A stretch of DNA of 64,000 nucleotides. Source: Gammaproteobacteria bacterium (GTDB lineage: Bacteria; Pseudomonadota; Gammaproteobacteria; Arenicellales; JAJDZL01). Location of the stretch: positions 1 through 64,000 of the forward strand of contig JAJDXD010000110.1 in the NCBI GenBank assembly GCA_022823405.1, read 5' to 3'. The notes under the pieces were generated by a model that saw nothing but the letters and a program-made list of their open reading frames with translations, ran no database searches and was not told where the DNA came from. Position 1 is the stretch's first letter, and each line of letters opens with the position of its first letter. A program made the position numbers and the translations under genes. Positions 35,815-63,516 of this stretch are shown piece after piece.

Positions 35815-36837
35815 TTATGCTGCGGATTTAAACTTATCAAAACGTTGTGCTAGTCGATCTCGGGAAGGATAATTTTCTCTGCGTCTGGGAAGGATTATTT
35901 TGTTACCGTTGAGTTGCTTCAGAGATTCAAGCATAGGGTCATCGTTTTGTTGGAGTAATTGTTCCGACACATGCATGCAGTAATCTGCATCAATTCCAAT
36001 CAGGTTTTGATCGAAGGCGGCGTGGTGGGTTTTCGAGAGGAGCAGACCGTTCGAAACAATGGGCTGACCTAACATTTCGTCTGTGTCAGGAACAATGTGC
36101 GCAGCATCCAGAAGTTGTGGAACAGCCAATCTTGTAATGGCACATTGACTGCTGTAGGCTTTGATTAGAACGTGTCGAAAAGAAGCTTGGTGAAGTCTTT
36201 GTTTATGTATGCGCATCGCATAGCGACGTTCGCCCGCTTCAGGAAATACAATGACAGGGTGCTGGTTGGGAACAGCGAATTCCAGTCTGACCTTAAGTGT
36301 TCGTGGGTCCCAGTCAGTAATAAAGGTTGGAAAAATTGGAATGTAGAGACTCTGATTAAATCCTAGAAAATAGATGATTGGAATCTTGTTTCTATATACC
36401 TCTCGAAGATGAAGATTCTGTCGTGCGTTTGGGTCGGTACCCATGAAAGAATAGTCAACAGAGTTCCTCCCTGCGTAAAACTGTGCACACGCTTGCGTTT
36501 GATCATCGTAATGAGCGCGCCTCCGAGGGTAAACGGTTCTAATAGAAAGCAGATGACGCATCTGCCTTGGTTTATGAATTCCTTGACCAGGGTTGACAAG
36601 GGCTATCCGCTCTCCTTTGTATGAGAAACCTGCCAGAATCAACTGAGATGTCAGACATCCATGAGTCTCAAACAAAGTTTGCACATGATTGAAGGCTTCT
36701 CTACGCATGAGTTCATCTTCGACGCTAGAATCGTTGTTGAAGGCGATTTCTCGTTGAATCATGCTTGAATAAAGATTGTGAATGTGGTCAAAGTAAGAAT
36801 CTGATTGTAGCAATACATTGGCTAAAACGCCACACAA
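35815..36837 (-). CDS. HNH endonuclease
   Basis: A 340-residue protein. The carboxy-terminal third (about residues 225-300) is an HNH nuclease: C-A-I-T near residue 235, D-A-A-H-I-V-P-D with the catalytic His, then S-N-G-L-L-L-S-K-T-H-H-A-A-F-D. The amino part is an unrecognised recognition-type region with an E-V-Y-R-N-K-I-P segment. The layout resembles HNH restriction endonucleases found without a methylase. It diverges from the toxin-antitoxin pair, sharing its promoter region. Confidence 0.8.
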   Translation of the reverse strand: MCGVLANVLLQSDSYFDHIHNLYSSMIQREIAFNNDSSVEDELMRREAFNHVQTLFETHGCLTSQLILAGFSYKGERIALVNPGQGIHKPRQMRHLLSIRTVYPRRRAHYDDQTQACAQFYAGRNSVDYSFMGTDPNARQNLHLREVYRNKIPIIYFLGFNQSLYIPIFPTFITDWDPRTLKVRLEFAVPNQHPVIVFPEAGERRYAMRIHKQRLHQASFRHVLIKAYSSQCAITRLAVPQLLDAAHIVPDTDEMLGQPIVSNGLLLSKTHHAAFDQNLIGIDADYCMHVSEQLLQQNDDPMLESLKQLNGNKIILPRRRENYPSRDRLAQRFDKFKSAA

Positions 36838-37279: not shown

Positions 37280-38122
37280 ATGAAGAATACCGGCAAGAAA
37301 CCAAAGAATTGGACTATTGCCCGAAATAAACAGTGTGCGTTGTGCGGTTCTGACAAAGTTCAAACCAGACATGAAACTAAATTTTTCAACTATGGAACTT
37401 TGGAAAAGCAAACAGAATTGCACGCCGAGGTACCTGTTTACAAATGCACAGAGTGTAACTTCATGTATACGGACCATGAAGGTGACCGGTTATGTCACGA
37501 TGCTATTTGCAATTATTTACAGGTGCTCACACCAAACGAAGTACGCACATTGAGAAGAAATGCAGGCTTGACTATAAAAGAATTCTCAAAAACCACTGGA
37601 ATTGGTCAGGCTTCAATCAGCAGATGGGAAAACGGTACATTGATACAAAACAAAGCAATGGACTTCTATCTTCGCTTGCTCAGAGTATTAAATAATTTAC
37701 AAGCTATTCGTAGTCGAATTGACAACACGAACAAACCTGTAGTCAATATCACAGACAAAATTCCGCATTTCGAACCGGTCCCCAGTGCACGATTACACTA
37801 CCAATCATTTGATTTGTTGCAAACTGAACAAAAAACATTTGCGCAAAAAAAAATAAAGACTGTTGGAGGTCATAAAATCATGACACCCAAAGAAGTTCGT
37901 CAAATTCGACTGAATCTGAATCAAACGATCCGTGAATATTCCAAAATTACAGGTATTGGGGCAGCTTCGCTATGCAGATGGGAGCAGGGAAGTCACATTC
38001 AAAACAGAGCCATGGATAACTATCTATTCTTACTGAGTTTACCTAACAATTTCAAGTTTCTAGCGAATGCATACAAAAAAACTTCTCTGACGAATCAGAA
38101 AAATGAGCGATTGTCAGAATGA
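37280..38122 (+). CDS. MqsA-like antitoxin with two helix-turn-helix domains
   Basis: A 280-residue protein. The amino end has two zinc-type pairs, C-A-L-C near residue 20 and C-T-E-C near 53, as in MqsA. Then comes an HTH: L-T-P-N-E-V-R-T-L-R-R...G-I-G-Q-A-S-I-S-R-W-E-N-G. After a linker of about 60 residues there is a second, similar HTH: M-T-P-K-E-V-R-Q-I-R...G-I-G-A-A-S-L-C-R-W-E-Q-G. Normal MqsA has one HTH and about 130 residues, so this is an enlarged form. It would neutralise the upstream toxin and bind the promoter palindrome. Confidence 0.75.
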   Translation: MKNTGKKPKNWTIARNKQCALCGSDKVQTRHETKFFNYGTLEKQTELHAEVPVYKCTECNFMYTDHEGDRLCHDAICNYLQVLTPNEVRTLRRNAGLTIKEFSKTTGIGQASISRWENGTLIQNKAMDFYLRLLRVLNNLQAIRSRIDNTNKPVVNITDKIPHFEPVPSARLHYQSFDLLQTEQKTFAQKKIKTVGGHKIMTPKEVRQIRLNLNQTIREYSKITGIGAASLCRWEQGSHIQNRAMDNYLFLLSLPNNFKFLANAYKKTSLTNQKNERLSE

Positions 38123-45131: not shown

Positions 45132-47141
45132 ATGGCGACCCGACGTTTGAATTTGCCTGAAGAGCTGGTTTTAATGCTTTTAAACGAGCAGACCGGTTAT
45201 TTTTATCAAGTACCCGGCTGGTCCCTAAATTGCGCTGTCATTGGAGCCGCACTCGCAGACCTTTCCCTACAGTCGCGAATTGATACAGACATTGAATCAC
45301 TTTTTGTATTGGACCCGACAGAAACTGGTGATCCAGTTTTAGATCTTTGTCTGAAGGCAATCTCGAAGGACAAGACTCCTCACAATGCCCGCTACTGGAT
45401 CGAACGACTCGCTGTCCACGCGGAGGACATAATTGATTCCACGCTTGACCGTCTGGTTAAATTGGAAATTCTGAAGCATCATGAAGGCGAGTTCTGGACG
45501 CTGGCTCCCACGATGTGGCATGGATACTCTCAAGAACATACAGCTAGTCAGTTAATCAAGTCGCGAATTAGCGATGGTATTTTTTCTGACACAATTCCCC
45601 TCCCGAGAGACATCATCATTGTCGGCCTTGTTAATTCGTGTGGTTTGTTTCACTTCATCTTTGAAATTGATGAAAAAGCAGAAAAACGAATTGAGCAAAT
45701 CTGTCAGATGGAACTGATCGGCCGCTCAATTGCTGCTGCTGTTAAAGAATCTATTGCTGTTCCGTTACTGCAGCGTCCCAGTTTCAAGAAAAAAATACCA
45801 TCCGTTCCACTGCTTAAGATTCTATCGAATCGACACGTTTGGAACGGTAATATACCTGCAATGCTTGCAGATTTCGCCAAAGAGTATGGTTCGGTTTTTC
45901 GGATTAACATACCTTTAACTCAGCCAATGACTTTCCTTGCCGGTATCGATATCAACCGCTGGGTTCATCGTAATGGGCGCCAGTACCTGACATCGAAGAA
46001 GTTTTATCAAGGTGTGGAAAATGAATACGGCGGTATCGGGGTGCTAGTCAGTCTAGACGGATCCGATCACTTCACTTTGCGTAGAGCTTTGCAGCGAGCC
46101 TATTCGGTCAGGAAACTTGAGAGTGAGATGAATTCTGTTTTCGATATGATTCGTAACCACATGAAGAGTCATTGGAAAGTGGGTTCACACGTGCAAGTGT
46201 ATGAAACTTCACGGAAATTATCTAATGCTCAAATCATGCCACTTCTTACGAGTACGGAAACGAACGATATCTTTGAGGATGTAATGAAGTGGAAGAACGC
46301 GGTTCAAATGATCCACATCGTTTTCAATCCACCCAAGTTTGTGACAAGATTGTTGTTCAATACTTCGCGAATGAAACGCGGTCGCAAAGCTGTTGATGAT
46401 GCTGTCAAAAGAGTTCAGCAGAACCATACGCCTGAACAACGGGTTGGTCAACCTTGGGAACTTGCTGATGAAACACTTTCTTTGTATGCCAGCGACCCGC
46501 AATTCTTCCCCGAGGCGAATTTGAGGTTCATGCTCTCGTCGCCGATGCTTGCAAGCCAGTACTTTTCCGATCTCATGGGTTGCGCCATCTACGCCATGGT
46601 AACACAACCCGACTTGTATGCAAAAATTCGCAGCGAAGCCGATGCCATTTTTTCCAATGGCGATCCAGACCCAGAGACCTTAGATTTATCGGATTTCGAC
46701 GTTACTCACCGCTTTGTGCTTGAGTGTCAGCGAATTTACCCTGTCGTCTATTTAATTCCTCGAAACGTGTCAAATTCGTGGTTGATCGATGACATCGAGT
46801 TACCCGTTGGAGAGCATGTTTTCATTGTTATGGGGGCCACACATTTTATGGAAGAGGCGTTCCCAGAACCATTCAAATTTGACATTGACCGTTATCTTCC
46901 GCCCACCAACGCGCATCGCAGTACTTCATTTGCTCCAGTTGGACTGGGCACCCATATGTGCCTCGGAATACGCTGGGTGGTGAAGCATATGGCTGTCAAT
47001 CTGTTGATGATCGCACATCACTTCAGGCTGGAATTGTCAGATCCGAATTTCAAGTTTAAATTCAACGCCTATTCCTCCCTGTCAGTCAGTAAAAAACTGA
47101 AAATTCATATTGCAGAACGATGGAAGGATTTTCCTGCCTGA
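45132..47141 (+). CDS. GPP34 (GOLPH3-like) domain fused to a cytochrome P450
   Basis: A 669-residue protein. Residues 5-210 match GPP34: L-N-L-P-E-E-L-V-L-M-L-L near the start, D-P-T-E-T-G-D-P-V-L-D near 75, Y-W-I-E-R-L, and the L-D-R-L-V-K-L-E-I-L segment. In eukaryotes this fold binds phosphoinositide at the Golgi. Residues 245-669 are a P450, with E-x-x-R as E-C-Q-R, and the haem loop F-A-P-V-G-L-G-T-H-M-C-L-G with the ligand Cys610. The I-helix lacks the usual A-G-x-x-T and reads A-S-Q-Y-F-S-D. There is no signal peptide. By location it may be a lipid- or sterol-modifying enzyme held at a membrane, which is inference. Confidence 0.85.
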   Translation: MATRRLNLPEELVLMLLNEQTGYFYQVPGWSLNCAVIGAALADLSLQSRIDTDIESLFVLDPTETGDPVLDLCLKAISKDKTPHNARYWIERLAVHAEDIIDSTLDRLVKLEILKHHEGEFWTLAPTMWHGYSQEHTASQLIKSRISDGIFSDTIPLPRDIIIVGLVNSCGLFHFIFEIDEKAEKRIEQICQMELIGRSIAAAVKESIAVPLLQRPSFKKKIPSVPLLKILSNRHVWNGNIPAMLADFAKEYGSVFRINIPLTQPMTFLAGIDINRWVHRNGRQYLTSKKFYQGVENEYGGIGVLVSLDGSDHFTLRRALQRAYSVRKLESEMNSVFDMIRNHMKSHWKVGSHVQVYETSRKLSNAQIMPLLTSTETNDIFEDVMKWKNAVQMIHIVFNPPKFVTRLLFNTSRMKRGRKAVDDAVKRVQQNHTPEQRVGQPWELADETLSLYASDPQFFPEANLRFMLSSPMLASQYFSDLMGCAIYAMVTQPDLYAKIRSEADAIFSNGDPDPETLDLSDFDVTHRFVLECQRIYPVVYLIPRNVSNSWLIDDIELPVGEHVFIVMGATHFMEEAFPEPFKFDIDRYLPPTNAHRSTSFAPVGLGTHMCLGIRWVVKHMAVNLLMIAHHFRLELSDPNFKFKFNAYSSLSVSKKLKIHIAERWKDFPA

Positions 47142-47341: not shown

Positions 47342-49672
47342 CTAGCGTGCGTGATGAGAAGATCCTTTCTTAAAATCACTCAGTTTACCCCTGGTTTTGT
47401 CCAAGGTCATTAGCAACGGCGGAAACAGCAATAAATCCGCCACCAGCGCAATTACAACAGTTAGTCCCACCAACACACCGAGTGTCTGATTAGCAGACAG
47501 TGCCGACGTTCCAAACACCATGAATCCCAAGGCAAAAATTGCTGTTGTTATCAATAGCGGACGGCCCACTATTCGAAATACCGGCCGGATAGCATCCTCA
47601 GGCGACTTCCCGCTAGCCCGCGCTCTCAGGTATTTTGTCATAAGATGTATCGTATCGTCCACGATGATACCAAAAGCAATTGCTGTAACAACCGAAGCCG
47701 ATATATCAACCTGTCCGACGACGTATCCCCATACACCCATAGCCATGATGGCTGGAACGAAATTGGGTATCAGGCTAATCAGACCAAACCGGAAACTTCT
47801 AAAGACAAATATCAGTAGCAACGAAACTATGGACATCGCAATGATAGTTCCGATCAGCATTCTTTCTATGTTTCGCATAATCGAATATGCACCGACTATC
47901 GTAACTCCGGTTGCTCCGGTTGCCATACCTGGAGTATTTTGATGCAGCCAGGATTTCGCACGTTCGTCGAGTTCAATCTTCTCACCAATCGACAAACCTT
48001 TAATTACAGCTGTTAAGCGAGTTTTGGAACGTTCGACATCAATGACATTGTTTAGATCGCGTCCAACTGGCAAAGAGAATTCGTAAAGCAGCAAGTATTG
48101 CGCGGCAAGTTCAGAATCCTCCGGCAGCTTATAAAAATTGGGGTCGTCACCATGCAGGTTTTCATTCAGCCGCTTAAGAACGTCAGTAAATGACACAACG
48201 TAAGAAACTTCCGGCTGCATTCGAAGCCACTGTGCGAAAGCGTCGACATTGCGCAGAAATTCAACATCAGTAACACCGCTATCGCGACCTGAATTAAGCG
48301 AGTACTCGAATGGCTCCAATGCTGAGAAATTTTCCACTATGAAATCGGTGGACCGTCGAAACTCGTAACTTTCATCTAGAATTTCCAAATGATTTTCGTT
48401 GAGCTCGATGCGCGTAATTCCGACAACGAGTACGGCTGTTAAGATTAAAAAAGTCCACAACAATCGGGTACTATTGGAAACAACAAATTTTGCCAGATGA
48501 TCAAAAAAGTATAGTTTTCCTGCTGGTGCAACCCGAGTTCTCATGGGCATAATCGACAACAATGCAGGCAAAAGTGTGACCGAATATACGAATGCGCACA
48601 TCGCTCCGAATGCGACGATGTTGCCCATGACTCGAAACGGGGGCATTTCCGAGAAATTCAAGCTGAGAAAACCGATAGCGGTGGTTAGTGAAGTCAGAAA
48701 TACAGGCCACGCGTTGAGTTGCAAGGAATGAATTGCGGCAGACCTGCGTGACATCCCTGAGCGCATACCATCTGCCATCACCTCAATTACATGAACCGAA
48801 TGAGCGATGGCAATCGCCATTAATACAAACAACGCTGCACCACTCTCTCCAAACAAAGGCATACCCGTCCAACCAGTAAACCCAAGCGCAGAAAGCAACA
48901 CGGTCATCAACATGGCAACGATCGCAATCATTCCCCAAATTGATCGAAGTACTATTAACGCGACCAGCAGCATCGTGCCAAACGCAATTGGTGCTAGAAC
49001 GGCTATATCGTTATTGATCGCGTCACGGACGGCGCGATTAAGAAAGAGATCACCATAGAGGTGATATTCAATTTCCGGATTGCTGGTGCGAGCTTCAACA
49101 GCAAGGCCATTTAGAAAGTCGACAACTTCAATTTTTGCTGCTTCTCGATCACTATCGGGAAGTGCAAGACTAACAACAAATCCACCGAGACGACCGTCTC
49201 GTGAAATAAAACGACCTGCGATGTCCGTCGTATCGAGTGCGATCCTCTGAATTCGCTCCAACTCTTCGTCACTCAGCGAAATTGCATCTTCGAATAGCGG
49301 TTCAACGATTAGTTCGTCTTCGAGTCCTTCGCTATGTGAGTAGTTTGCTAAAGAATCGACGCGAACTACATATGGAGTCAGCCAAAGATGTTCGGTCAGC
49401 TGTTCGACTGCGGCAAGTGCCTCACGGGTAAAAATGGTTTCAGTCGAAGGTGCGATCACTACAAGTGCGCTATCTGAAAGCGCGAACAGATCCTCCATTT
49501 CTTCGAGCTTAACCAAATGCGGATCATCTTTGTTGAAGTGATTTCGAAAATCAACGTCGACAGTAACAATTCGCGTAACTCCCGCAGCGAACACCGTCAC
49601 AATCAGCAACGAAAGAAAAATTGTTAACCAGCGGTATCTGACTACCAAGTTGAAAAATTCATAAACATTCAT
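47342..49672 (-). CDS. RND/MMPL-family (HAE3, HpnN-like) lipid exporter
   Basis: A 776-residue inner-membrane protein with two repeats, each one helix, a large periplasmic loop and five more helices. The second repeat holds the proton-relay type motif G-I-I-V-D-D-T-I-H-L near residue 670. The matching place in the first repeat reads A-I-A-H-S-V-H-V and lacks the Asp. It belongs with the MMPL/hydrophobe-exporter RND group that includes hopanoid (HpnN) and bacterial sterol (BstA) carriers. With a LolA-like carrier at 52876 and sterol genes beyond, sterol export is a reasonable guess. It is convergent with the P450 fusion gene. Confidence 0.85.
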   Translation of the reverse strand: MNVYEFFNLVVRYRWLTIFLSLLIVTVFAAGVTRIVTVDVDFRNHFNKDDPHLVKLEEMEDLFALSDSALVVIAPSTETIFTREALAAVEQLTEHLWLTPYVVRVDSLANYSHSEGLEDELIVEPLFEDAISLSDEELERIQRIALDTTDIAGRFISRDGRLGGFVVSLALPDSDREAAKIEVVDFLNGLAVEARTSNPEIEYHLYGDLFLNRAVRDAINNDIAVLAPIAFGTMLLVALIVLRSIWGMIAIVAMLMTVLLSALGFTGWTGMPLFGESGAALFVLMAIAIAHSVHVIEVMADGMRSGMSRRSAAIHSLQLNAWPVFLTSLTTAIGFLSLNFSEMPPFRVMGNIVAFGAMCAFVYSVTLLPALLSIMPMRTRVAPAGKLYFFDHLAKFVVSNSTRLLWTFLILTAVLVVGITRIELNENHLEILDESYEFRRSTDFIVENFSALEPFEYSLNSGRDSGVTDVEFLRNVDAFAQWLRMQPEVSYVVSFTDVLKRLNENLHGDDPNFYKLPEDSELAAQYLLLYEFSLPVGRDLNNVIDVERSKTRLTAVIKGLSIGEKIELDERAKSWLHQNTPGMATGATGVTIVGAYSIMRNIERMLIGTIIAMSIVSLLLIFVFRSFRFGLISLIPNFVPAIMAMGVWGYVVGQVDISASVVTAIAFGIIVDDTIHLMTKYLRARASGKSPEDAIRPVFRIVGRPLLITTAIFALGFMVFGTSALSANQTLGVLVGLTVVIALVADLLLFPPLLMTLDKTRGKLSDFKKGSSHHAR

Positions 49673-51264: not shown

Positions 51265-52329
51265 GTGGCTACTGATCAAAATAAACCATCGTCACGATCG
51301 CCAAAAAAAGCGATGAATTCTTCCAGTTTGTTCGGAGACCTGTCCAAGGACGAAATTAGTTCCGTGGCCAATGAATACCAACAAATTTATGAGTCTGGCG
51401 AGGAACATCGAAAAGAGACATATCAGAGATATGTCAATCATTATTACGACCTGGTAACTGGATTATTCGAGTTCGTCTGGGGCAGATCTTTTCATTTTGC
51501 ACCTCGACGATTGGGTGAGAGTCTTAAGTCGTCGAAATTCCGATATCAGCACTTTATTGCAGACCAAATGTCCCTGAAACCGGGAATGCATATACTCGAT
51601 GTAGGGTGTGGAATCGGAGCTCCAATGGCTGAATTGGCCCGCTATTCCGGGGCTAGTTTTGTGGGACTTAACAATAACGCGTACCAAATTAAACGTGCAA
51701 GACAAATCACGCAAGCTGAGGATATTGGGTCGTTGTGCGATTTTGTTCACGGCGATTACATGCAGATACCCGAAGACAACGATTGCTTTGATGGCGCGAT
51801 CGCCATCGAGTCCATGCAGCATGCACCAGACAAAACAGCAGCGTTCCGGGAAGTTTTTCGTGTATTGCGTCCAGGGGCTTGTTTTGCGGGTCACGATTGG
51901 TGTGTAACCGACTTTTTTGACTCGCAGAATGCTGAACACACGCGGATTATTGAAGACATTGAGATTGGGACCGCACTACCCAAAATTTCCACCGCAGCAG
52001 AAATTTGTGAAGCATTTTGCGAGGCTGGATTCGAAGTTCTCGATACGTGTGACCTTGCTCACATATCTGGCTCCGATATACCATGGTATAACATCTTTCA
52101 AGGTCGTCACTTCACACTTAGAAATATTCTAATCACACCTACCGGTCGTGCAGTCACCAAATTGGTGTTAAGGATAGGTGAGAAAGTACGGGGAGTTCCG
52201 AAAGGGACTCACAAAGTCACCACATTTCTGGGCAGGGCGGGGAATGCATTCATCGAAGCCGGTGAGACTGGAATATTTACACCACTATATTTTTTCCTGG
52301 TACGTAAACCCCATAATCCAGACAGTTAA
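51265..52329 (+). CDS. Sterol C-24 methyltransferase-like protein 1 (ERG6/SMT family)
   Basis: A 354-residue SAM-dependent methyltransferase of the SMT family. The sterol-site region I reads F-E-F-V-W-G-R-S-F-H-F (about residue 70). SAM motif I is L-D-V-G-C-G-I-G-A-P (from about residue 111), then L-N-N-N-A-Y-Q-I, G-D-Y-M, A-I-E-S-M-Q-H-A-P and I-P-W-Y, all in the order of yeast ERG6. The SMT_C carboxy domain (F-T-P-L-Y-F-F-L-V-R-K-P) is present. It would add a methyl to C-24 of a sterol side chain. The start is GTG 51265, aligned with the TTG start of the second copy. It is the less canonical of the two copies (I-G-A-P instead of V-G-G-P). Confidence 0.85.
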   Translation: MATDQNKPSSRSPKKAMNSSSLFGDLSKDEISSVANEYQQIYESGEEHRKETYQRYVNHYYDLVTGLFEFVWGRSFHFAPRRLGESLKSSKFRYQHFIADQMSLKPGMHILDVGCGIGAPMAELARYSGASFVGLNNNAYQIKRARQITQAEDIGSLCDFVHGDYMQIPEDNDCFDGAIAIESMQHAPDKTAAFREVFRVLRPGACFAGHDWCVTDFFDSQNAEHTRIIEDIEIGTALPKISTAAEICEAFCEAGFEVLDTCDLAHISGSDIPWYNIFQGRHFTLRNILITPTGRAVTKLVLRIGEKVRGVPKGTHKVTTFLGRAGNAFIEAGETGIFTPLYFFLVRKPHNPDS

Positions 52330-52875: not shown

Positions 52876-53694
52876 ATGCAAAGTCTTTCTCATCGTAATT
52901 ACAACCTCGGATCACTTAGCATCTATTTTGCTGTATTTGCATTGGTTATGACGCCATTCACCGTGAGTGCACAGAATGCTGAGGAAATAGGGTTTCAAAT
53001 TGCAATGGAAGCCCGCCAAAAGCAGTATGGATTTGTTAATTACACGGCAAGTCTTACCATGATTTTGCGAAACAAACAGGGTAAGGAATCTTCGCGCAAA
53101 GTGCGGTTGAAAGTGCTGGAAGTTGAAGAGGATGGCGACCGTTCCCTGTTTGTGTTTGATGAGCCGCGTGACGTCAAAGGAACAGCCTTTCTAGTTCATG
53201 CCCATAAGTTCGAGCCTGATGATCAATGGCTTTATCTGCCCGCGCTCAAACGAGTAAAACGGATCAGTTCGTCAAAACAGTCAGGTTCCTTTATGGGTAG
53301 TGAGTTTGCTTACGAGGATCTTGGCGCGGTTGAAATTGAGAAATATACGCATAAATTCTTGCGCGACGAACCCTGCGGCGATTTGCAGTGTGCAGTATTG
53401 GAGCGTGTCCCAATTAGCGCCGATTCAGGTTATTCGCGTCATCTGGTTTGGTACGACCGGGAAGAGCTTCGTGTCCAGCAGGTTCATTTCTTTGACCGTA
53501 GAAACGCACACCTAAAAACGATGACCCTTGAGAACTACGAAAAGTATCTCAATAATTTCTGGCAAGCTAGCAAGATCATGATGGTGAACCATCTTACCGG
53601 TAAGAGCACAGACATGCTTTGGTCGGATCTGGAGTTTAAGACTGACCTTGATGAAAGCAACTTTACGCAAACAGCGATAAAGCGTATCCGTTAG
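52876..53694 (+). CDS. LolA-like outer-membrane lipoprotein-sorting/lipid carrier protein
   Basis: A 272-residue protein with a signal peptide (hydrophobic core about 15-32, A-Q near 35), so periplasmic. The body matches the LolA-superfamily outer membrane lipoprotein-sorting proteins: D-E-P-R-D-V-K-G-T-A-F-L, W-L-Y-L-P-A-L-K-R-V-K-R-I and F-M-G-S-E-F-A-Y-E-D-L. Proteins of this group are often encoded with MMPL-type RND exporters. Here it lies between two sterol methyltransferases, so a sterol or sterol-lipid carrier role is inferred. AGGAGG is five bases before ATG. Confidence 0.85.
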   Translation: MQSLSHRNYNLGSLSIYFAVFALVMTPFTVSAQNAEEIGFQIAMEARQKQYGFVNYTASLTMILRNKQGKESSRKVRLKVLEVEEDGDRSLFVFDEPRDVKGTAFLVHAHKFEPDDQWLYLPALKRVKRISSSKQSGSFMGSEFAYEDLGAVEIEKYTHKFLRDEPCGDLQCAVLERVPISADSGYSRHLVWYDREELRVQQVHFFDRRNAHLKTMTLENYEKYLNNFWQASKIMMVNHLTGKSTDMLWSDLEFKTDLDESNFTQTAIKRIR

Positions 53695-54137: not shown

Positions 54138-55199
54138 TTGGCTGAAGAAAATAAAGATTTACCGTCGGTGTTTGACAAACAACTGAATTCTTCTGGGCTG
54201 CTCGGTGCCCTGTCCGATGATGAAGTCGATTCTGTGGTCAATGAATATGAAAAGATCTATGAGTCTGGCGAAGAACATCGAAAAGAAACCTACCAGAAAT
54301 TTGTCAACCACTACTACAACTTGGCAACTGACTTCTACGAGTTTGGCTGGGGCAATTCATTTCACTTTGCACCTCGACGACGAGGTGAGAGTTTTAAGGC
54401 GTCATTACTGAGGCATCAGCATTTTATTGCGGACCAAATGTCCCTGAAACCTGGAATGCATATTCTCGATGTGGGATGCGGAGTAGGGGGACCAATGGCT
54501 GAATTGGCTCGCTATTCAGGGGCTAAATTTGTAGGGCTTAACAACAACGCGTACCAAATAAAGCGCGCCAAAGAAGTTACACAGGCTGAGGACATCAAGT
54601 CGCTGTGCCGCTTCATTCATGGCGATTACATGAAGATACCTGAAGACAATGATTGCTTTGATGGTGCTTTCGCCATCGAGTCCATGCCCCATGCGCCAGA
54701 CAAGACAGCGGCGTTTGGAGAAATACTGCGTGTTCTTCGCCCAGGAGCGAGTTTTGCCGGGTACGATTGGTGCGTAACTGAATTGTTTGATTCGCAAAAT
54801 GCAGAACACAGGCGAATTATCAGAGACATTGAGATTGGAAATGCGCTGCCCAGAATATCCACCACGAAAGGGGTATACGAAGCATTGTGCGAGGCTGGAT
54901 TCGAGGTCCTTGATGCGTGCGACTTAGCTAGCGCATCGAACTCTGATATACCTTGGTATCGCCCCTTGCAAGGACGTGACATCACATTCCGGAGTATTCC
55001 CCGTACACCTGCGGGACGTGCGATTACCAACCTGGTGTTGAGAATCGGCGAGAGAGTACGACTGTTTCCTAAAGGCGCTCGTATGGTCAGCACCATTTTG
55101 AACAGAGCGGCTGATGCAATTGTCAAAGGTGGTGAAACCGGTACATTTACGACAATGTACTACTTTTTGGCACGTAAACCCCATCATTCAAACAGTTAA
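54138..55199 (+). CDS. Sterol C-24 methyltransferase-like protein 2 (ERG6/SMT family)
   Basis: A 353-residue paralogue of the 51265 protein, clearly similar over its whole length. Region I is Y-E-F-G-W-G-N-S-F-H-F, motif I L-D-V-G-C-G-V-G-G-P (from about residue 110), then L-N-N-N-A-Y-Q-I-K-R-A-K, A-I-E-S-M-P-H-A-P and I-P-W-Y-R-P-L. This is closer to eukaryotic ERG6 than copy 1. It starts at TTG 54138 with AGGA nine bases upstream. Two copies next to a sterol operon suggest sequential methylation giving C1 then C2 side-chain groups, or two substrates. It converges with the cyclase gene. Confidence 0.87.
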   Translation: MAEENKDLPSVFDKQLNSSGLLGALSDDEVDSVVNEYEKIYESGEEHRKETYQKFVNHYYNLATDFYEFGWGNSFHFAPRRRGESFKASLLRHQHFIADQMSLKPGMHILDVGCGVGGPMAELARYSGAKFVGLNNNAYQIKRAKEVTQAEDIKSLCRFIHGDYMKIPEDNDCFDGAFAIESMPHAPDKTAAFGEILRVLRPGASFAGYDWCVTELFDSQNAEHRRIIRDIEIGNALPRISTTKGVYEALCEAGFEVLDACDLASASNSDIPWYRPLQGRDITFRSIPRTPAGRAITNLVLRIGERVRLFPKGARMVSTILNRAADAIVKGGETGTFTTMYYFLARKPHHSNS

Positions 55200-55393: not shown

Positions 55394-58300
55394 TCAGTCA
55401 GCTACTGTGCAGCAATCAGTGCCAACTTTCACCGACTGACGCATCTTACGTCGTTGCTGGTAGAGGCACAATGCATGCAAAGGAAAGTATTGTCGATACA
55501 GGACATAGTCCAACAGAGCAGTGCGAAAAAACACACCAACCATATTTTGCTTTGGCCATGTTCCATCCACATTTTGCGTGTTGAGCAAATAGCCAATTCC
55601 ATTTGAAATCGCGTGCCAGTTGGAGTCACCTGCCTCAAGCAGTGCGATGAGAGCCCACGCGGTCTGGATAACTTGACTCTCCACAAGCCCGACGTATTGG
55701 CCAGTGAAGCAGCCTCGGTGACTTTCTCCCCAACCGCCATCATTGCGTTGGCGCTCTAACAGCCAATGGCAGGCCAGTCGCAGTGCCGGGTCGCCAGGAT
55801 TCGCTCCCGCCGCAAGCAAACCCCGAATCCCAAACAAGGTGCCGTAAATGTACTGAACGCCCCACACGCCGCGCCATGATCCGTCATTCGCTTGCGTTCG
55901 GCGAAGCCAGGCTTCGCCTCTAGAAATGGCGTTCGTTACGGTCTGGTCTGCAAGTTGTGGAAAATGACTCTTGAATTCACTAAGTGCGCTAAGGCACGAT
56001 GCGGTGCATTCGACAAAGGAGTGCTCGGTCATTGATTCGCCAAACATCTCAGCTGGATTAAGCCACTCCAGACCAAGCATAGAACGTTTTGATTCATAAC
56101 TGCCAAAACCACCATTTCGATTTTGACTCCGTAACATGAACTGTACAGCTTCACTCAACGTGCTGGTGTCAGCATTTTTGCCATGGACAGCTAGAATTCC
56201 AAGTGCAGCCTCTGCAGTACAGTCGGACACCGGCCAGCCATGCCATCCTCCCGCAAAACACCAACCACCTTTAGGGTCGGCACGATTCGCCTCTTGATAT
56301 CCCTGAAAACTGTTGACAATTTGCTCTTGGCTCAAAAATTCAGAGCCATGTGTGAGTGCGTTCTGAACCTTGTCTAATTCAGCTACCTTCGCCAACGCCT
56401 GCAACGCAAACCCGGTATCCCACGAAGCACTCCTTGCACCGGTAACTCGCGTACCTTGTTCCTCGTCCTCCCAAATCCAACCATCCAACTGCGATAGCGC
56501 CTGCAACATGTCAGAGTCATTCCGATCATGCAACCACAAGGCAAGAATATTGAGCAAACCGCTGACAGGAGATATGCTTGTGTGGTTAGTGGTTTGCAAC
56601 TCCCACTTGATTCGTTTGAGCAGTCTGTCGACAGTTTGAGTCCTTTGGCGCTTTAGATGAACTTTTTCATACGCTCTTGTCAGGCAATACCCGGCTCGAA
56701 GCCACAGACTCGGCCGGCAAAATAAATCAGCTTCTCGCAAACTGTTTCGGGCTTCGGAAAAATTCACCTTGTCAAAACCTTGGGGAAAAAGTTCTTCTCG
56801 TAAAGAGGTGATCGTGGATGTAATCGGTGCTTGGTATCGTTGTGAGTAAACTGTTGCCATAGCCATGTAAATTAGCCTGGTGTGGCAATACCACTTAGAG
56901 GGATGTAATACAAACCAACGCGGCAGTCGCCACAATTCTGGCAGTACAGCATGGACTCCGTCCCAGTCGTAGAGATTAAGCAGCGCTAGCCAAAACTTGC
57001 CCCAACTTGGAATATTGACAACCCCTTCTGCCTGCAGGAACTGCCTCGCTGGTTCGATCAAAGGATCATCTTGACTGACTCCAAGCAGTCTCGATGTGAC
57101 ATACACAAGGGTGGTAACGAAAAGATGAGGTGAGGAATGCTCGTGCATACCCCATACCCCTTGTTCAAGACGAGTCTTCTCGAAACTAAGCAGGATAAGT
57201 TGTCGTCGTTGTGGCTCCAGCGGCTGATCGAGAATGTAGTGTAGCAGAGCGTATTGGGCGGTGAGCATGGGACACCAAACCATTTCTCCTTCCCAGCTGC
57301 CATTGTCATTCTGGAGACTCAACAAACGCTCTGTAGCCCTCTCCAAGGCAGGACCAACATCGGGAGAATGAATCTTTTTGGGAATTGACCTGGAATCATC
57401 GGATCTCGTTGGAATGGAAATTAGGAATGCGCGGGCTAATGAATCACGGGCAAGAAAGTCTTTTTCGCCACCTCTATTTCGGTCTCTACGTTGGGCGATA
57501 ATGCCGCGCACCAGCCATACCAACCGTCCAGTGGTAGCATTCATGACTTTGAATGCACGGTTCCAGGGTAGTCTTTCAAAGTTACGCGGGAGTTGTCTAA
57601 GGAGCGTAATGGCGACTATCGTGGAAACAGTGAAAGAAAGATGAACAACCGACGTGTTTTCACAAGCAAGTAGACTTACAGTTCCTTTGCGCGCTAAAGG
57701 ATGTTTTCGCCAATTACTATAAATCGCTCTCCTTAGTTCCGCTGATTCGCGTCGATAGTCAGCAAAAACCTCGTATAAACCCATCGCCAGTAACTCAGGG
57801 CCGCGAGTTGCCAAGTGACGTTTGGAGGAAAATGCTCGAAAGTTCTCGTGCATCGCCAAATCGAAAGCATCACCAAAACCGAGAGTCATGCCGACCGCAG
57901 TCATAGGATGGTAATTTCCGACTGCGTCGCCTACAAGAACAAGGTTTGAATTCCCATGAGTCGTTCGCGCTCTAATTTCATTGGTTGCAGCATGAAATTT
58001 TCCGTTCTGGAGTGCTTCGATAAATCCAGATCTGAGTTGTTCAGGTAGCTGATCGGCATAAGCTTCCGACAACAGCCCAATACGGTCACGCGGAATCCAG
58101 TGATTCAACGGCACATCGACGATTATCTTGACGCGATCACGCCCCAATTGGTACATGAGAATCGGACCTGGCCCACCCAGCAGAACATGGCCATAACCCT
58201 TCAGTTGCAAGTCTTCCCCTTCAACGATCACCCCCACCATACGCGAGCAGATTACCCGACCAGTCTGCAATCCCAGTGACTTGCGAACAGTTGATGCGCG

Positions 58301-58774
58301 ACCGTCGGCACCGACAATTCGGTTGGCGTTGACAGTAGTATTGGTTCCGTTGAGATCTATGGATATCTGACCAGATGTGGCTTCAAGAACCTTAACTGGA
58401 ACAATAAAGTCGATATTAGACTCATTTTGTACACTTTGATGAAGAAGCGAGACGAGTGCTGAATGTTCACATGCCAAACCGCGGGACCCGTTCGCATAAG
58501 GAAGTACAATCGGTTCCGAGCCGTCTTCCGGAAACACAGCAAACCCGTTGCCGGGGACGCTTTCGATTTGCGATTCAATCTCAACCCCGACCTCGTTTAG
58601 AATTCGAAGAGCCGGCGGATGCAACCACTCACCGGCCAGTCGTTTGGAGGCCTTCGGATTCGCTTCGAACAGAGCAACTTGAGCGCCCTTTTTTGCGTAG
58701 GCGAGGGCACATACGCTCCCGACAGGACCAGCGCCGACGATGGCGACGTCATAGAATCCTAGACTATTGCTCAA
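55394..58774 (-). CDS. Squalene monooxygenase fused to oxidosqualene cyclase
   Basis: One uninterrupted polypeptide of about 1126 residues. Part 1 (about 8-400) is a squalene epoxidase: FAD motif V-A-I-V-G-A-G-P-V-G near 10, G-A-D-G-R near 155, and L-V-G-D-A...H-P-M-T-A-V-G-M near 280. Part 2 (about 475-1110) is an oxidosqualene cyclase: H-P-S-K-W-Y-C-H-x-R, the catalytic V-S-D-C-T-A-E with Asp851, and repeated QW motifs (Q-N-R-N-G-G-F, D-G-S-W-R-G-V-W-G-V-Q). The D-C-T-A-E motif separates it from squalene-hopene cyclases (D-x-D-D). It would turn squalene into oxidosqualene and then a protosterol such as lanosterol. The start is TTG 58774, overlapping the CYP51 stop as TTGA; the open frame to 58843 lies within CYP51. 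Confidence 0.92.
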   Translation of the reverse strand: MSNSLGFYDVAIVGAGPVGSVCALAYAKKGAQVALFEANPKASKRLAGEWLHPPALRILNEVGVEIESQIESVPGNGFAVFPEDGSEPIVLPYANGSRGLACEHSALVSLLHQSVQNESNIDFIVPVKVLEATSGQISIDLNGTNTTVNANRIVGADGRASTVRKSLGLQTGRVICSRMVGVIVEGEDLQLKGYGHVLLGGPGPILMYQLGRDRVKIIVDVPLNHWIPRDRIGLLSEAYADQLPEQLRSGFIEALQNGKFHAATNEIRARTTHGNSNLVLVGDAVGNYHPMTAVGMTLGFGDAFDLAMHENFRAFSSKRHLATRGPELLAMGLYEVFADYRRESAELRRAIYSNWRKHPLARKGTVSLLACENTSVVHLSFTVSTIVAITLLRQLPRNFERLPWNRAFKVMNATTGRLVWLVRGIIAQRRDRNRGGEKDFLARDSLARAFLISIPTRSDDSRSIPKKIHSPDVGPALERATERLLSLQNDNGSWEGEMVWCPMLTAQYALLHYILDQPLEPQRRQLILLSFEKTRLEQGVWGMHEHSSPHLFVTTLVYVTSRLLGVSQDDPLIEPARQFLQAEGVVNIPSWGKFWLALLNLYDWDGVHAVLPELWRLPRWFVLHPSKWYCHTRLIYMAMATVYSQRYQAPITSTITSLREELFPQGFDKVNFSEARNSLREADLFCRPSLWLRAGYCLTRAYEKVHLKRQRTQTVDRLLKRIKWELQTTNHTSISPVSGLLNILALWLHDRNDSDMLQALSQLDGWIWEDEEQGTRVTGARSASWDTGFALQALAKVAELDKVQNALTHGSEFLSQEQIVNSFQGYQEANRADPKGGWCFAGGWHGWPVSDCTAEAALGILAVHGKNADTSTLSEAVQFMLRSQNRNGGFGSYESKRSMLGLEWLNPAEMFGESMTEHSFVECTASCLSALSEFKSHFPQLADQTVTNAISRGEAWLRRTQANDGSWRGVWGVQYIYGTLFGIRGLLAAGANPGDPALRLACHWLLERQRNDGGWGESHRGCFTGQYVGLVESQVIQTAWALIALLEAGDSNWHAISNGIGYLLNTQNVDGTWPKQNMVGVFFRTALLDYVLYRQYFPLHALCLYQQRRKMRQSVKVGTDCCTVAD

Positions 58775-60159
58775 TGGAAAATGCCAGATTTTGAGCGATG
58801 TTGGTAACGAACCCGACAAGGTTCCTTGGGACCTGTCACCCAACTGCCATAATTCGGGGCAGGAATGTCTCGATCGGTAAAAAAATCAAAGCGATCAAGC
58901 AGTACAGTCCAGATCGTTTTAAGTTGCAGGTAGGCAAAATGCTTCCCCATACACATGTGTTTACCGCCGCCAAAACCTATCAAAGTGTAGCGGTGTTGTT
59001 TGTCTTCGCGGTTCGGTGATGCAAATCTTTCCGGATAGAACCGGTCTGGATTGGCGAATAGGTGAGGCAAGCGGTGAGCAGCTGCCGGTGATACCATGGC
59101 GAGGGTGCCGGCGGGTACGGAATGATCACCGAATTGCACAGGTTTGAGTACTTTTCGAATCAACAAAATCAATGGCGGATGTAGTCGCTCGTTTTCGCGT
59201 ATGGTGTACTCCATCAACGATTGTTGCTTTAAGGTGTCAATGTTTGAAGCGTTTTCATTTGCATAAACTTCCTGCATCTCGTTCCGCAATTTGTCAATGT
59301 ACGACGGCGAATTCAAAAGTTCCAAACAGGTCCAGGTTGCAAGAACTGCGCTAGTGTGCTGACCCGCGAACAATACGGTCAGTAGAATTCCAGTAATCTC
59401 TTCGTCGGTAACCGCACGGCTATCTTTGTAACGACTTTCCATAACTTTCTGCATGAAATCATCCGACCTAGCACCCGTACGCCGTCGCTCCATGACAATT
59501 CGTTCAAACATTTCGGAAATGGATTTCCGTGCCCGGTCGCGACTTCGATGCGCCGGTGTCGGTAAATGAGGAAAGAAAAAGCCTAGGGTGTTGATTCCAT
59601 TCTGCAAATCGTGATAGCTTTCCGCAAACCCAGCGTTCAACTGATTACGGACCTCAGGACCTATGAGGCAGTGACTGGCAATATTGATCGTAAGCTGATT
59701 CATCGCCTGTGGTAAATCCAATTCTCCTTGTTGGCCCATGGCATCAGCAAAATTCATTGTCTCCTCAAACATAATGTCAGAAAACTTGCGTAACGCGGAT
59801 TCGCGCAGTTCCGGGTAGAGAAATCCCAACTGCTCAGACATCAGTTCGGGGGAAACGTCGTAGGCTACACCACGACCAAAAATTGGTACTGTGAATTGAT
59901 AGACATCTTTAGCACTCATGTGATCTCGGGGCGCCCTGAAATAACAATCATGCGCTTCGGGACCGGCAAACAAGACGAATTTACGCGTACCGAGACGAAA
60001 TTGAAACAACTCTCCCTGCTCATGCCACCCACGGATCAACATCGAAACCGGATCCTTTAAAAACTCCGTCAGATGACCAATCAAGGGCAATCCACCGGTC
60101 AGCATCGGAATATTCTTAGCCGGTGGCGGTGTGTGATGTGTTGAGGAAAGGGTCGTCAT
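58771..60159 (-). CDS. cyp51: Sterol 14-alpha-demethylase, CYP51 family
   Basis: A 462-residue P450. CYP51 features are Y-x-F-x-V-P-I-F-G-x-G-V-A-Y-D in the B-C region, the I-helix L-F-A-G-Q-H-T-S-A, E-x-x-R as E-N-E-R-L-H-P-P, and the haem loop G-F-G-G-G-K-H-M-C-M-G with Cys403. It would remove the C-14 methyl of lanosterol-type sterols. There is no membrane anchor and no ferredoxin fused at the end, unlike the Methylococcus enzyme, so its electron donor lies elsewhere. ATG 60159 has AAGGAAG upstream. It is the fourth gene of the sterol operon. Confidence 0.92.
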   Translation of the reverse strand: MTTLSSTHHTPPPAKNIPMLTGGLPLIGHLTEFLKDPVSMLIRGWHEQGELFQFRLGTRKFVLFAGPEAHDCYFRAPRDHMSAKDVYQFTVPIFGRGVAYDVSPELMSEQLGFLYPELRESALRKFSDIMFEETMNFADAMGQQGELDLPQAMNQLTINIASHCLIGPEVRNQLNAGFAESYHDLQNGINTLGFFFPHLPTPAHRSRDRARKSISEMFERIVMERRRTGARSDDFMQKVMESRYKDSRAVTDEEITGILLTVLFAGQHTSAVLATWTCLELLNSPSYIDKLRNEMQEVYANENASNIDTLKQQSLMEYTIRENERLHPPLILLIRKVLKPVQFGDHSVPAGTLAMVSPAAAHRLPHLFANPDRFYPERFASPNREDKQHRYTLIGFGGGKHMCMGKHFAYLQLKTIWTVLLDRFDFFTDRDIPAPNYGSWVTGPKEPCRVRYQHRSKSGIFH

Positions 60160-60186: not shown

Positions 60187-61287
60187 CTAGTAGACAAACG
60201 GTAACATTGAATAACGGACTCGCTGTTTGTAGCGCGTCCACAGATCGCCATACTTGGCACAACAGCGTTGCTCATCACGTAGTGAGCGGTGACACAGCAG
60301 TACAGTCAACCATACAGGCAAGAGGTAGGGTACCCAAGACTCAAATCCTGTGGTCAGGGCAAATGAAAAGTAGACACAAATTTCACCCGTATAGTTAAGG
60401 TGGCGTCCAACACCCCAAAAACCGGAGATCAGCAACCGACCTTCCAAGGTACGGGCGGGTTGACCCCAAATCCTAATATCAGCTTTACGTTTGAAGCGGT
60501 GCTTTTGTTGATTGGCGCCGCGAAATAGCCAGAAACCGAATCCAAATAACAACACAATTGCTACTGCGGCAATAGGATGCAGCACATCAGACGGGTGCAC
60601 CAGCCACCAACCCACCAAACAGTAAAAAAATGGCACCAAGACATAATCTCCCCAAATCAGCATCCATCCAAAGCGCTCACTGATCATGTCCCATGTGTGA
60701 ACCATTCCCTGTTCAAACTGGAAATAGTTGAATACATACAAAAAAGTGAAGATTTGATATAGCATCATTGCCAGCGTCAGTTCACCGTAAGTTTCGTATT
60801 GCATGACGGCGAATGAGGCATTAAAGAGTGCGAGACCAATGAGAGAGGGGCGATAGCTAAATAGCTTAATGTCCACTCCGAGCCAGGTCGGATTGGACAG
60901 CGCACCGAAAAAATATCCACGCCAAAAGCCAGTAGTGGTTTCCTGATTACGGGTAGCCCGGAAATAAAGCCATGTAGCAAGTAAAAATGCGAATACGTTT
61001 GCAGCCACGAACAAAGCGGCAAATTGCGAATACAGCACCGAAAGCGAAAACCAACCCATTGACTGGACAATAGCTGTCACAAATACCGTAATCAGAAACA
61101 GCGCAAGACCATTGAGTTTATATTCGCGCGTATTGCCCTCCATATCCGGACCTTTGATTCGGCGTCCAGGTACCACTACAGAACCCAAAAACAGCGCCCC
61201 AACGAATACCAAAACCATGCCCGCCGCTTCAAGCAGGTTCAGGCTCGTCAGCATTGTCAACATCGATATAAAGTTCGGTTCAGGCAT
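60187..61287 (-). CDS. C-14 sterol reductase (ERG24/ERG4 family)
   Basis: About 366 residues, a multi-helix membrane protein. The carboxy-terminal signature is complete: L-L-I-S-G-F-W-G-V-G-R-H-L-N-Y-T-G-E, then H-R-S-L-R-D-E-Q-R-C-x-x-K-Y-G-x-x-W-x-x-Y. This is the NADPH-binding end of delta-14/delta-24(28)-type sterol reductases. Next to CYP51 it most likely reduces the C-14 double bond left by demethylation. ATG 61287 overlaps the sdmA stop by eight bases; an earlier in-frame start at 61314 is possible. Confidence 0.88.
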   Translation of the reverse strand: MPEPNFISMLTMLTSLNLLEAAGMVLVFVGALFLGSVVVPGRRIKGPDMEGNTREYKLNGLALFLITVFVTAIVQSMGWFSLSVLYSQFAALFVAANVFAFLLATWLYFRATRNQETTTGFWRGYFFGALSNPTWLGVDIKLFSYRPSLIGLALFNASFAVMQYETYGELTLAMMLYQIFTFLYVFNYFQFEQGMVHTWDMISERFGWMLIWGDYVLVPFFYCLVGWWLVHPSDVLHPIAAVAIVLLFGFGFWLFRGANQQKHRFKRKADIRIWGQPARTLEGRLLISGFWGVGRHLNYTGEICVYFSFALTTGFESWVPYLLPVWLTVLLCHRSLRDEQRCCAKYGDLWTRYKQRVRYSMLPFVY

Positions 61288-62383
61288 TATCGAAACTGTT
61301 TTCCATGGATTCACGGGCCAAGTATTCTTCCCACTTGCGAACAGTCAAATTTTGAAACTCGCGTACAACCGGATTGAATTCAATGGGAGGTGCGTCCCAG
61401 TGTGCCTCGTAACCCAGTTGTTCTGCCTCGACGGCAACTTTGTCCTGAGTTAACAAGGGAGCAATCATCATGCGGTTTGAGATTTTCATGGCTGCGCTCA
61501 TTGCAAAACGGGGAATTCTTATGGGCAGTAAGGGTATTTTTAAAGATTTGAAATAAAACAGAAAAAATACTCGTGTGGTCCGTTCGTCAATTGGTAAAAC
61601 AAATAACCAGTGTTTTATCCACTCATCGGTATTCGACCACTGGTAGGGGTATTGGAAGCAAAGCGTCATGCTGTTGGTATCAAATTTGTCGTGCTCCACA
61701 AAAAATCCCGAAATCCGCCCGCGTCCGACCTTCGTGTCATAAGCAAGATGAACGTTATCCCCAACCGTCTCATATTGGGTGAGGACGGCATCCTGAAACG
61801 GACGATACTTGCGGTGAAGATAGGCGTGCGTGAAATCGCTGACGTTATCGATAATCATCGAGTGATGGGCTGACCAAGTGAAGCTGAGGGGTACACAGGC
61901 CCAGCGTTTTGGCCCTTCAAGTTCGGGAATATCCGGAATCTCTCGTTGTTCAGAGCGTTCAGCCTTGCCGGGAAACAGCCAGACTAGACCATAGCGAACC
62001 TTGACAGGATAACTCTTGATTGAAGGCTTCAGACCTTTGTTTCCGCCCGACTTCGTCTGTGGGATATCGGCCCGTCGACCGGTCTGGTCATATTCCCAGC
62101 CGTGATATGCGCAGACAAGCCGACAGCCTTGAACATTCCCTAGTGAGAGTTTGAGCTGGCGATGTGCGCATCGGTTTTCGAGTGCGTAAAATGATCCATC
62201 TTCTGCACGATACAGCGCAATAGACTGTTTCCAAAAAATAACTTCGACTACGGTTCCAGGTTTGATTCGACGCACTTCTTCGACTGCGTACCAATAGTCG
62301 GGGTCCATGCCGGTTGCCCGAACTTTCTGACGCAAATTTCCAGCTTGCTCAAAACTTGGTGGTGAATTATGCAGCGAACTCAA
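61280..62383 (-). CDS. sdmA: Rieske-type sterol C-4 demethylase oxygenase SdmA
   Basis: A 367-residue Rieske non-haem iron oxygenase. The [2Fe-2S] motif is C72-A-H74 ... C91-A-Y-H94 and the mononuclear iron site has D183, H186 and H190 (S-D-F-T-H-A-Y-L-H). In Methylococcus, SdmA with SdmB removes a C-4 methyl from sterols by a route distinct from the eukaryotic one. The context (sdmB upstream, sterol genes downstream) supports this call. The start is TTG 62383, overlapping the sdmB stop as TTGA, with AAGGAGG six bases upstream. No reductase partner is in the operon. Confidence 0.85.
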   Translation of the reverse strand: MSSLHNSPPSFEQAGNLRQKVRATGMDPDYWYAVEEVRRIKPGTVVEVIFWKQSIALYRAEDGSFYALENRCAHRQLKLSLGNVQGCRLVCAYHGWEYDQTGRRADIPQTKSGGNKGLKPSIKSYPVKVRYGLVWLFPGKAERSEQREIPDIPELEGPKRWACVPLSFTWSAHHSMIIDNVSDFTHAYLHRKYRPFQDAVLTQYETVGDNVHLAYDTKVGRGRISGFFVEHDKFDTNSMTLCFQYPYQWSNTDEWIKHWLFVLPIDERTTRVFFLFYFKSLKIPLLPIRIPRFAMSAAMKISNRMMIAPLLTQDKVAVEAEQLGYEAHWDAPPIEFNPVVREFQNLTVRKWEEYLARESMENSFDNA

Positions 62384-63516
62384 GTTGAGCCTCCTTGTGG
62401 CGTTGCCTGTAGATTCTTGTTAGTCATGGTACTCGCCGTTGCGAATTCGGATTTCTCTGTGGGAAATTTTGCATCCGGATTTATTATTGCGTTCGGACGG
62501 TTGTAGTGAAACGCATAGGCGTCATTAATCGCCTCTCGAATACTGGTTGGCTGATAACCTAGTTCCTGCCTGGCTTTTTTGAGGCTGGCATGACGACGCA
62601 GCCTTAACAGGCGGATGGCACCAGGGGTAAAGCGCTGATTGAAATCCGGATGAAATCGACTTAAATAAAAACTTGCCACTTCTGAGAAAGCCAGCATTAT
62701 GGGGGATGGTATCTGTCGAACCGGACGCGCAATTCCGCTAACCTCCTCGAATAAATCCAGAATATCTGAGATGGTTTTGAACTCGCTGCTAAAAATGTAT
62801 TTCTCGCCCGAACGTCCATGCTCCATACACAACAGATGTCCTTGTACGATGTCGCGTGCAGCGACAAACTCGAATCCACCATCTATGTAAGCAAGTAGTT
62901 TTCCATTGGTGTAGTCGCACAAGGTTTTTCCGAGTCGCGATGGAAAAAAATCAGCGCCACCGATTACAGCACAACACGTTGCGACAATGACTTCCTGACC
63001 TTTTGCAGCTGCGCGCCAACACTCGTGCTCGACTTGCGACTTGCTGCGCTCATATGGCATCGTGCGTACCATGGGATAGAATGGCATCGTCTCATCACTC
63101 GGTAAGGAGGGGTTGTCGAGATCATAACCAACTGCACTGAATGAGCCTGTAACCACCACTCGACCTGCTTCGGTCTCACGCGCCGCTCGCAAAACGTTAC
63201 GGGTACCGAGAACATTAGTCTCGAATATTTCCCGACGATGGTCACGATTACCATCGATGGTAGAAATTTTCGCTGCAACATGATAGACACCTTGGCAACC
63301 TTCCATTGCGTCCCGGGTAGCTTTTAAATCCCGAATGTCACCATAGCGGCACTCAACATCCAGATTTTTCAGTCCTTCATTGTTGTCCTCGTGCCTTAGC
63401 AACACACGAATTGGAATGCCATCATTAAGTAACCTTCGCACGAGATTTGATCCTACATGCCCGGCTGCACCGGTTACAAAAACGGGTGCATTGCGTGAAT
63501 TATCAATCGAGTTCAA
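62380..63516 (-). CDS. sdmB: NAD(P)-dependent sterol 4-carboxylate decarboxylase-like SdmB
   Basis: A 378-residue extended SDR of the 3-beta-hydroxysteroid dehydrogenase/epimerase type. The cofactor motif T-G-A-A-G-H-V-G is at 15-22, catalytic Y155-E-R-S-K159, and the S-F-S-A-V-G strand precedes it. In bacterial C-4 demethylation SdmB oxidises C-3 with loss of the C-4 carboxyl. It is the first gene of the operon sdmB-sdmA-C14 reductase-cyp51-cyclase. Start TTG 63516 is the only reasonable one after an in-frame TGA. The last 30 or so residues are low-complexity. A perfect 8-bp palindrome lies upstream. Confidence 0.82.
   Translation of the reverse strand: MNSIDNSRNAPVFVTGAAGHVGSNLVRRLLNDGIPIRVLLRHEDNNEGLKNLDVECRYGDIRDLKATRDAMEGCQGVYHVAAKISTIDGNRDHRREIFETNVLGTRNVLRAARETEAGRVVVTGSFSAVGYDLDNPSLPSDETMPFYPMVRTMPYERSKSQVEHECWRAAAKGQEVIVATCCAVIGGADFFPSRLGKTLCDYTNGKLLAYIDGGFEFVAARDIVQGHLLCMEHGRSGEKYIFSSEFKTISDILDLFEEVSGIARPVRQIPSPIMLAFSEVASFYLSRFHPDFNQRFTPGAIRLLRLRRHASLKKARQELGYQPTSIREAINDAYAFHYNRPNAIINPDAKFPTEKSEFATASTMTNKNLQATPQGGST

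Follow-up and report, generated by a model that had tools for sequence, protein, structure and literature searches.

A GPP34 domain of the GOLPH3/Vps74 type and a cytochrome P450 are joined in one protein of 669 aa, which is encoded at 45132..47141 (+ strand) of the window, the whole stretch of 64,000 nucleotides analysed here. The fusion occurs almost only in bacteria with sterol-making genes, and this link is strong by association. Its P450 half keeps the haem site and has a shortened I-helix. Our best reading, held with about even confidence, is that the protein is a membrane-held haem enzyme that acts on sterols and whose oxygen chemistry is non-classical.

The open reading frame has an ATG start and no internal stop. 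Its GPP34 domain (aa 8-206, 45153..45749, + strand) matched PF05719 with 107.1-110.4 bits against a cut-off of 29.1 (hmmscan, Pfam; E 1.7e-30, profile 1-200/201), and its P450 domain (aa 231-653, 45822..47090, + strand) matched PF00067 with 119.9-121.2 bits against a cut-off of 22.8 (hmmscan, Pfam; E 1.6e-34, profile 13-455/462). We combined 21 bacterial GPP34 domains into a profile, which in the PDB reached GOLPH3 at E 1.1e-17 and Vps74 at E 1.3e-15 (range to 2.7e-15), and no other protein in that search was better than E 0.08. The single GPP34 sequence of the fusion matched solved GOLPH3/Vps74 marginally (E 0.024). Since both Pfam domains are near full-length and far above their cut-offs, and the profile reaches to GOLPH3 and Vps74, the sequence-only reading was right to call a GOLPH3-like domain joined to a full P450. 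The AlphaFold mean pLDDT was 43.0 for the whole fusion and 43.6 for the GPP34 domain, each from a 5-sequence alignment only; these low values are a gap and are no evidence against a GOLPH3 fold. Besides hydrophobic stretches inside the GPP34 or P450 cores, there was no strong transmembrane segment in the fusion.

Independent genomes keep the GPP34-P450 layout at about 44-52% identity. An assembly artefact or chimera is rejected because of this conservation, which also rejects a chance ORF at 45132-47141. The dN/dS values were 0.08-0.26 for both halves in four of six pairs compared (G044/G096, G022/G073, G022/G027 and G755/G762). G000 and G004 are near-identical, and the value of 1.56 for their GPP34 half comes from hardly any changes; for CAR1/Spongia9 the comparison of the P450 half was saturated.

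The main fusion family was found in 21 genomes of Gamma- and Alphaproteobacteria (11 + G287 + 7 + G474 + G475). Full-length fusions were present in 11 genomes of a set of 145 relatives, the window's own genome counted, and a class-wide sample of 369 genomes added G287. Among 385 genomes around the alphaproteobacterial G476 there were seven fusions, six intact and one frameshifted (G833). In a sample of 398 genomes from across the phylum, most of them very complete, the matches listed, in order of score, contained only the window's own fusion. Four loci came from the named genome collection; they belong to one gammaproteobacterial MAG and three alphaproteobacterial MAGs, one of the latter being Spongia_Bin9. 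These profile searches for GPP34-P450 covered Proteobacteria samples. On plasmid records, 268 of 72,556 matched the fusion query, none over >80% of it, and the 15 listed matched the P450 half; no GPP34 relative was confirmed in the viral contigs scanned. A second type of fusion, about 28-30% identical to the main type, was detected in G096 and G003; the G003 copy has an in-frame stop. Damaged copies are of both types: that of G003 (L050/L015), and the frameshifted main-type copy of G833 (L098), which is accompanied by a further partial copy. In the open-licence PubMed Central literature we found no description of a GPP34-P450 protein, as the earlier reading had supposed, and no paper on bacterial GOLPH3 homologues; the papers listed for GPP34 together with bacteria dealt mostly with insecticidal proteins.

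Maximum-likelihood trees of the P450 half and the GPP34 half were built separately. In both trees the 20 intact main-type copies formed one clade, with support of 100/100 (P450) and 100/99 (GPP34), and in both G287 branched first, then G840. The second-type fusions were outside the main clade, both of them in the P450 tree and the G096 copy in the GPP34 tree, which held this copy only. By these trees the main family stems from one fusion event. The alphaproteobacterial and gammaproteobacterial copies interleave in the P450 tree, as where G022/G027/G073 group with CAR1/CAR3/Spongia9 (100/100). This pattern suggests transfer between the two lineages and not simple descent.

The sterol link of the fusion is stronger than the earlier reading, which saw only the window, could show. 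Sterol C14-reductase (ERG24, PF01222) was found full-length in 18 of 21 fusion genomes and in two of 134 fusion-free relatives, where full-length PF01222 matches >200 bits were counted and shorter or weaker matches in 21 further genomes of the relative set were left uncounted. Within the set of 145 relatives it was present in 10/11 fusion genomes against 2/134 others (Fisher p 9e-13, relatedness ignored). The remaining positive fusion genomes were G287, G474, G475, G476 and four of six further alphaproteobacteria. For the 31 alphaproteobacteria tested from the 385-genome sample, ERG24 was in 5/7 with the fusion and 1/24 without it (p 7e-4), the latter 24 being chosen by GPP34 or P450 matches and not randomly. 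Among the relatives, seven of the 11 genomes with the fusion have a sterol methyltransferase; presence of the fusion thus does not track side-chain alkylation. G085, G136 and G541 make sterols and have no fusion, and therefore the fusion is no essential step of the pathway; we rejected that role for it.

The association has exceptions on the other side as well. G044, G755 and G762 have the fusion and neither ERG24 nor a convincing oxidosqualene cyclase; either genes are missing from these draft assemblies, or the enzyme is independent of de novo synthesis. These three genomes, together with the interleaved tree and the transfer it suggests, would agree with a substrate that is another lipid, the fusion travelling with sterol genes in a shared lipid gene pool. 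We consider this quite improbable: it is opposed by the ERG24 counts, and sterol genes adjoin the fusion in several lineages.

The window itself contains a sterol cluster downstream of the fusion. The convergent neighbour of the fusion is an MMPL (RND, HAE3-type) transporter (47342..49672, - strand, PF03176, with weak BstA/HpnN-like matches). It is followed by sterol methyltransferase 1 (51265..52329, + strand, PF08498 Sterol_MT_C), a LolA-like lipoprotein-sorting protein (52876..53694, + strand, PF17131) and sterol methyltransferase 2 (54138..55199, + strand, PF08498). The two methyltransferases are about 70% identical, and the LolA-like gene lies between them. On the - strand there are a squalene epoxidase-oxidosqualene cyclase fusion in one ORF (55394..58843; PF08491, SQHop_cyclase N/C, TIGR01787, and TIGR03463 below cut-off), a CYP51 or sterol 14-demethylase (58771..60159, PDB CYP51 E 5e-102), a sterol C14-reductase of ERG24 type (60187..61314, PF01222 247.8 bits), a Rieske oxygenase like the C4 demethylase SdmA (61280..62383, NF052579 402.7 bits, below the cut-off of 600) and an SdmB-like SDR (62380..63516, NF052578 282.6 bits, below the cut-off of 600). 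Elsewhere in the window we observed an MqsA-like antitoxin/HTH protein (37280-38122) and an HNH protein weakly similar to phosphorothioate-DNA restriction enzymes (35815-36837).

Neighbourhoods were counted at 20 loci with enough flank; L035, a 3.3 kb contig, was omitted. An MMPL gene was near the fusion in 16/20 loci, a LolA-like gene in 10/20 and a sterol methyltransferase in 8/20. The loci of G040, G073, G027 and G287 had no MMPL gene in the stretch read. In L095, from an alphaproteobacterium, a Pfam-confirmed KshA-type Rieske oxygenase adjoins the fusion, and other fusion loci gave, by tblastn only, a Rieske match with 20-25% identity to SdmA. A flavin amine-oxidase-like protein was near the fusion in L094 and L093. 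The fusion neighbourhood looks like a tailoring-and-export module, beside or apart from the core sterol operon.

By its Pfam score, haem Cys and ExxR motif, the P450 half belongs to the P450 superfamily. The haem-Cys loop FAPVGLGTHMCLGIR (aa 600-614, 46929..46973, + strand) keeps Cys610; at the usual Phe position it has Val in the window copy and Tyr in most orthologues. Cys610, the ExxR residues Glu531 and Arg534, and the Gly and His of the haem loop were invariant in 20/20 fusion copies, in alignments that omit the frameshifted G833. The I-helix acid-alcohol pair of a classical O2-activating P450 is missing. In the segment SPMLASQYFSDLMGCAI (aa 470-486, 46539..46589, + strand) the I-helix is one residue short, and the acid-alcohol pair is replaced by Tyr and a hydrophobic residue. 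Where other P450s have AGxDT or AGxHT, the fusion family has (A/Q/T)(S/G/A)-x-Y-(L/V/M/F)-(G/S)-(D/S). The O2-activating motif (A/G)Gx(D/E/H)T was absent in 20/20 fusion copies, and Tyr477 was invariant.

The segment was 17 residues in all 20 fusion copies and 18 in 34/34 other P450 rows; these rows represent 32 distinct genes, as L022/L065 and L028/L067 were fetched twice, and they include the two second-type fusion P450s, of which that of G003 was read only downstream of its in-frame stop. A one-residue offset in the same helix was also seen against solved CYP51s in the five HMMER alignments listed; three of these five are with forms of a single protein. The fragment of the frameshifted copy in G833 still reads MTAMYMGD. 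The nearest unfused relatives (G351, G446, G626, G480 and G765) have the normal length, which places the deletion most likely on the branch leading to the fused clade.

The I-helix groove of P450s serves proton delivery to bound O2. As this groove is lost, the fusion P450 probably does not perform classical reductase-driven hydroxylation. The sequence-only reading had proposed a sterol-oxidising P450; its sterol part agrees with the association described above, whereas a plain O2-activating sterol oxidase is doubtful because the acid-alcohol pair is lost in all 20 copies. A P450 that lacks the pair may still be a monooxygenase. The fusion could be a classical O2- and ferredoxin-dependent sterol monooxygenase, such as a side-chain hydroxylase or a C22-desaturase, in which other residues deliver the protons. 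The co-occurrence with sterol genes, CYP51s as the nearest solved relatives and the intact Cys, ExxR and haem loop are consistent with such an enzyme. We regard it as possible but rather doubtful, since the pair and one I-helix residue are gone throughout the family, the length is kept in every other row including close unfused relatives and second-type fusions, and inspection by eye of the listed ORFs adjoining the fusion showed no obvious ferredoxin.

The loss of the I-helix chemistry motif, and the MMPL gene nearby at most loci, would also suit a P450 fold without catalysis that acts as a sterol carrier or sensor docked on the membrane and feeds the MMPL / LolA-like exporter. It is unlikely, because all 20 copies keep the haem Cys, the ExxR motif and the Gly and His of the haem loop, for which a mere carrier has no need.

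We prefer a haem enzyme whose oxygen chemistry is not classical. In this proposal the N-terminal GPP34 domain would hold a soluble haem enzyme at the inner face of the cytoplasmic membrane, and the P450 half would act on sterols synthesised in, or taken up into, this membrane. The P450 half keeps the haem thiolate and the fold but no longer has the proton-delivering groove of the I-helix, and its chemistry would more likely be peroxide use, rearrangement of an already oxidised sterol, or a reaction with substrate-supplied protons. The products may then pass to the neighbouring MMPL / LolA-like export pair.

How the GPP34 half would find its membrane can be considered from human GOLPH3, in which we take W81, R90, R171 and R174 to be the PI4P contacts. 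In an alignment to full-length human GOLPH3, the residue was kept in 0/21 bacterial GPP34 rows at the W81, R90 and R171 columns; at the R174 column R was found in 5/21 bacterial rows and in 0/8 fusion-family rows sampled. Placement at a particular membrane, as the earlier reading had suggested, is not supported as PI4P-type targeting because these four positions, the presumed PI4P contacts, are not kept in the fusion family. The hairpin of GOLPH3 is presumably membrane-inserting, and the matching hairpin is partly hydrophobic in bacterial domains (FWTL, FYTL), so docking on the membrane without PI4P is possible. The earlier interpretation as a whole is partly supported: it holds for the layout, for the lack of a description in the literature searched and for the sterol link; its plain oxidase role is doubtful, and targeting of the PI4P type is not supported.

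Besides P450, the GPP34 domain has MFS transporters and a haem-like membrane domain as fusion partners, which makes it a reusable module. GPP34-MFS fusions were observed at L052:8462-10327, L056:6607-8514 and L072:6132-8030, in two other genomes. On the window contig, some 0.8 kb beyond the end of the window, L039:773-2122 encodes GPP34 with a multi-pass membrane segment that has several His and is haem-like. A multihaem cytochrome c gene follows this fusion, Pfam-confirmed for the window contig only. Similar GPP34-multi-pass layouts were seen in L053, L055, L057 and L073 (genomes G001, G032, G040 and G287). In the GPP34 tree, the domains of the MFS-fused kind and those of the multi-pass-fused kind each formed one clade.

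In a bolder reading, one fusion event would have linked a bacterial GOLPH3-type membrane module with a P450 from which the proton-delivery turn of the I-helix was deleted. The product would be a membrane-docked haem enzyme of a new class, acting on sterols as a peroxygenase or isomerase and coupled to an MMPL exporter of sterols. Its hosts would be sterol-making bacteria, at least some of them associated with sponges, in which GPP34 would serve as a general plug-in membrane adaptor. We put this combined picture forward tentatively, with clearly less than even confidence.

The function of bacterial GPP34 is undescribed in the literature searched, and the fusion ties one such domain to a named pathway in a single chain that is open to expression and testing. 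Because it lies among sterol genes and lacks the oxygen-activating turn, this P450 family gives a tangible starting point in the search for new sterol chemistry. It also bears on the debate, as treated in parts of PMC10070321 and PMC9531527, whether bacteria supply side-chain-modified sterols in sponges.

Compared with known systems, bacterial GPP34 is homologous across the whole domain to GOLPH3 (3kn1, 9qpq) and Vps74 (2zih, 2zii, 4tu3), but the fusion is bacterial and its GPP34 is joined to an enzyme. The eukaryotic proteins also have an insertion of about 10 residues before R171, which is absent from bacterial GPP34.

By profile, the nearest solved relatives of the fusion P450 are CYP51 sterol 14-demethylases (E 2.9e-38), then other P450s including several sterol ones. 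The true CYP51 of the window lies 11.6 kb from the fusion and is about 20% identical to its P450, which lacks the AGxHT I-helix motif. In single-sequence matches to the best solved CYP51 the fusion reached E 1.3e-10 against 5e-102 for this CYP51, and a simple CYP51 duplicate is rejected for too low similarity. The CYP152 peroxygenases (CypC, OleT) also lack the acid-alcohol pair, according to a part of PMC10988616, and share this with the fusion. Membership in CYP152 is rejected, as the NCBIfam model NF053744 gave 21.9 bits (E 5e-5), far under its cut-off of 600. CYP5619 of oomycetes (PMC5919972) likewise has a P450 and another domain in one chain, but its partner is a peroxidase/dioxygenase and not GPP34.

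In the steroid clusters of sponge symbionts described in PMC9531527 and PMC10070321, the order is ERG24-CYP51-LSS; an SDR ('DFR') and one more gene stand at the 5' end, and SMT is encoded by the other strand. The main text of neither paper names a GPP34 protein under that wording ('Golgi' has 0 matches), and a passage of PMC10070321 mentions fused SMO/OSC homologues. As described there, the gene order and the SMT strand of these clusters match the cluster in the window.
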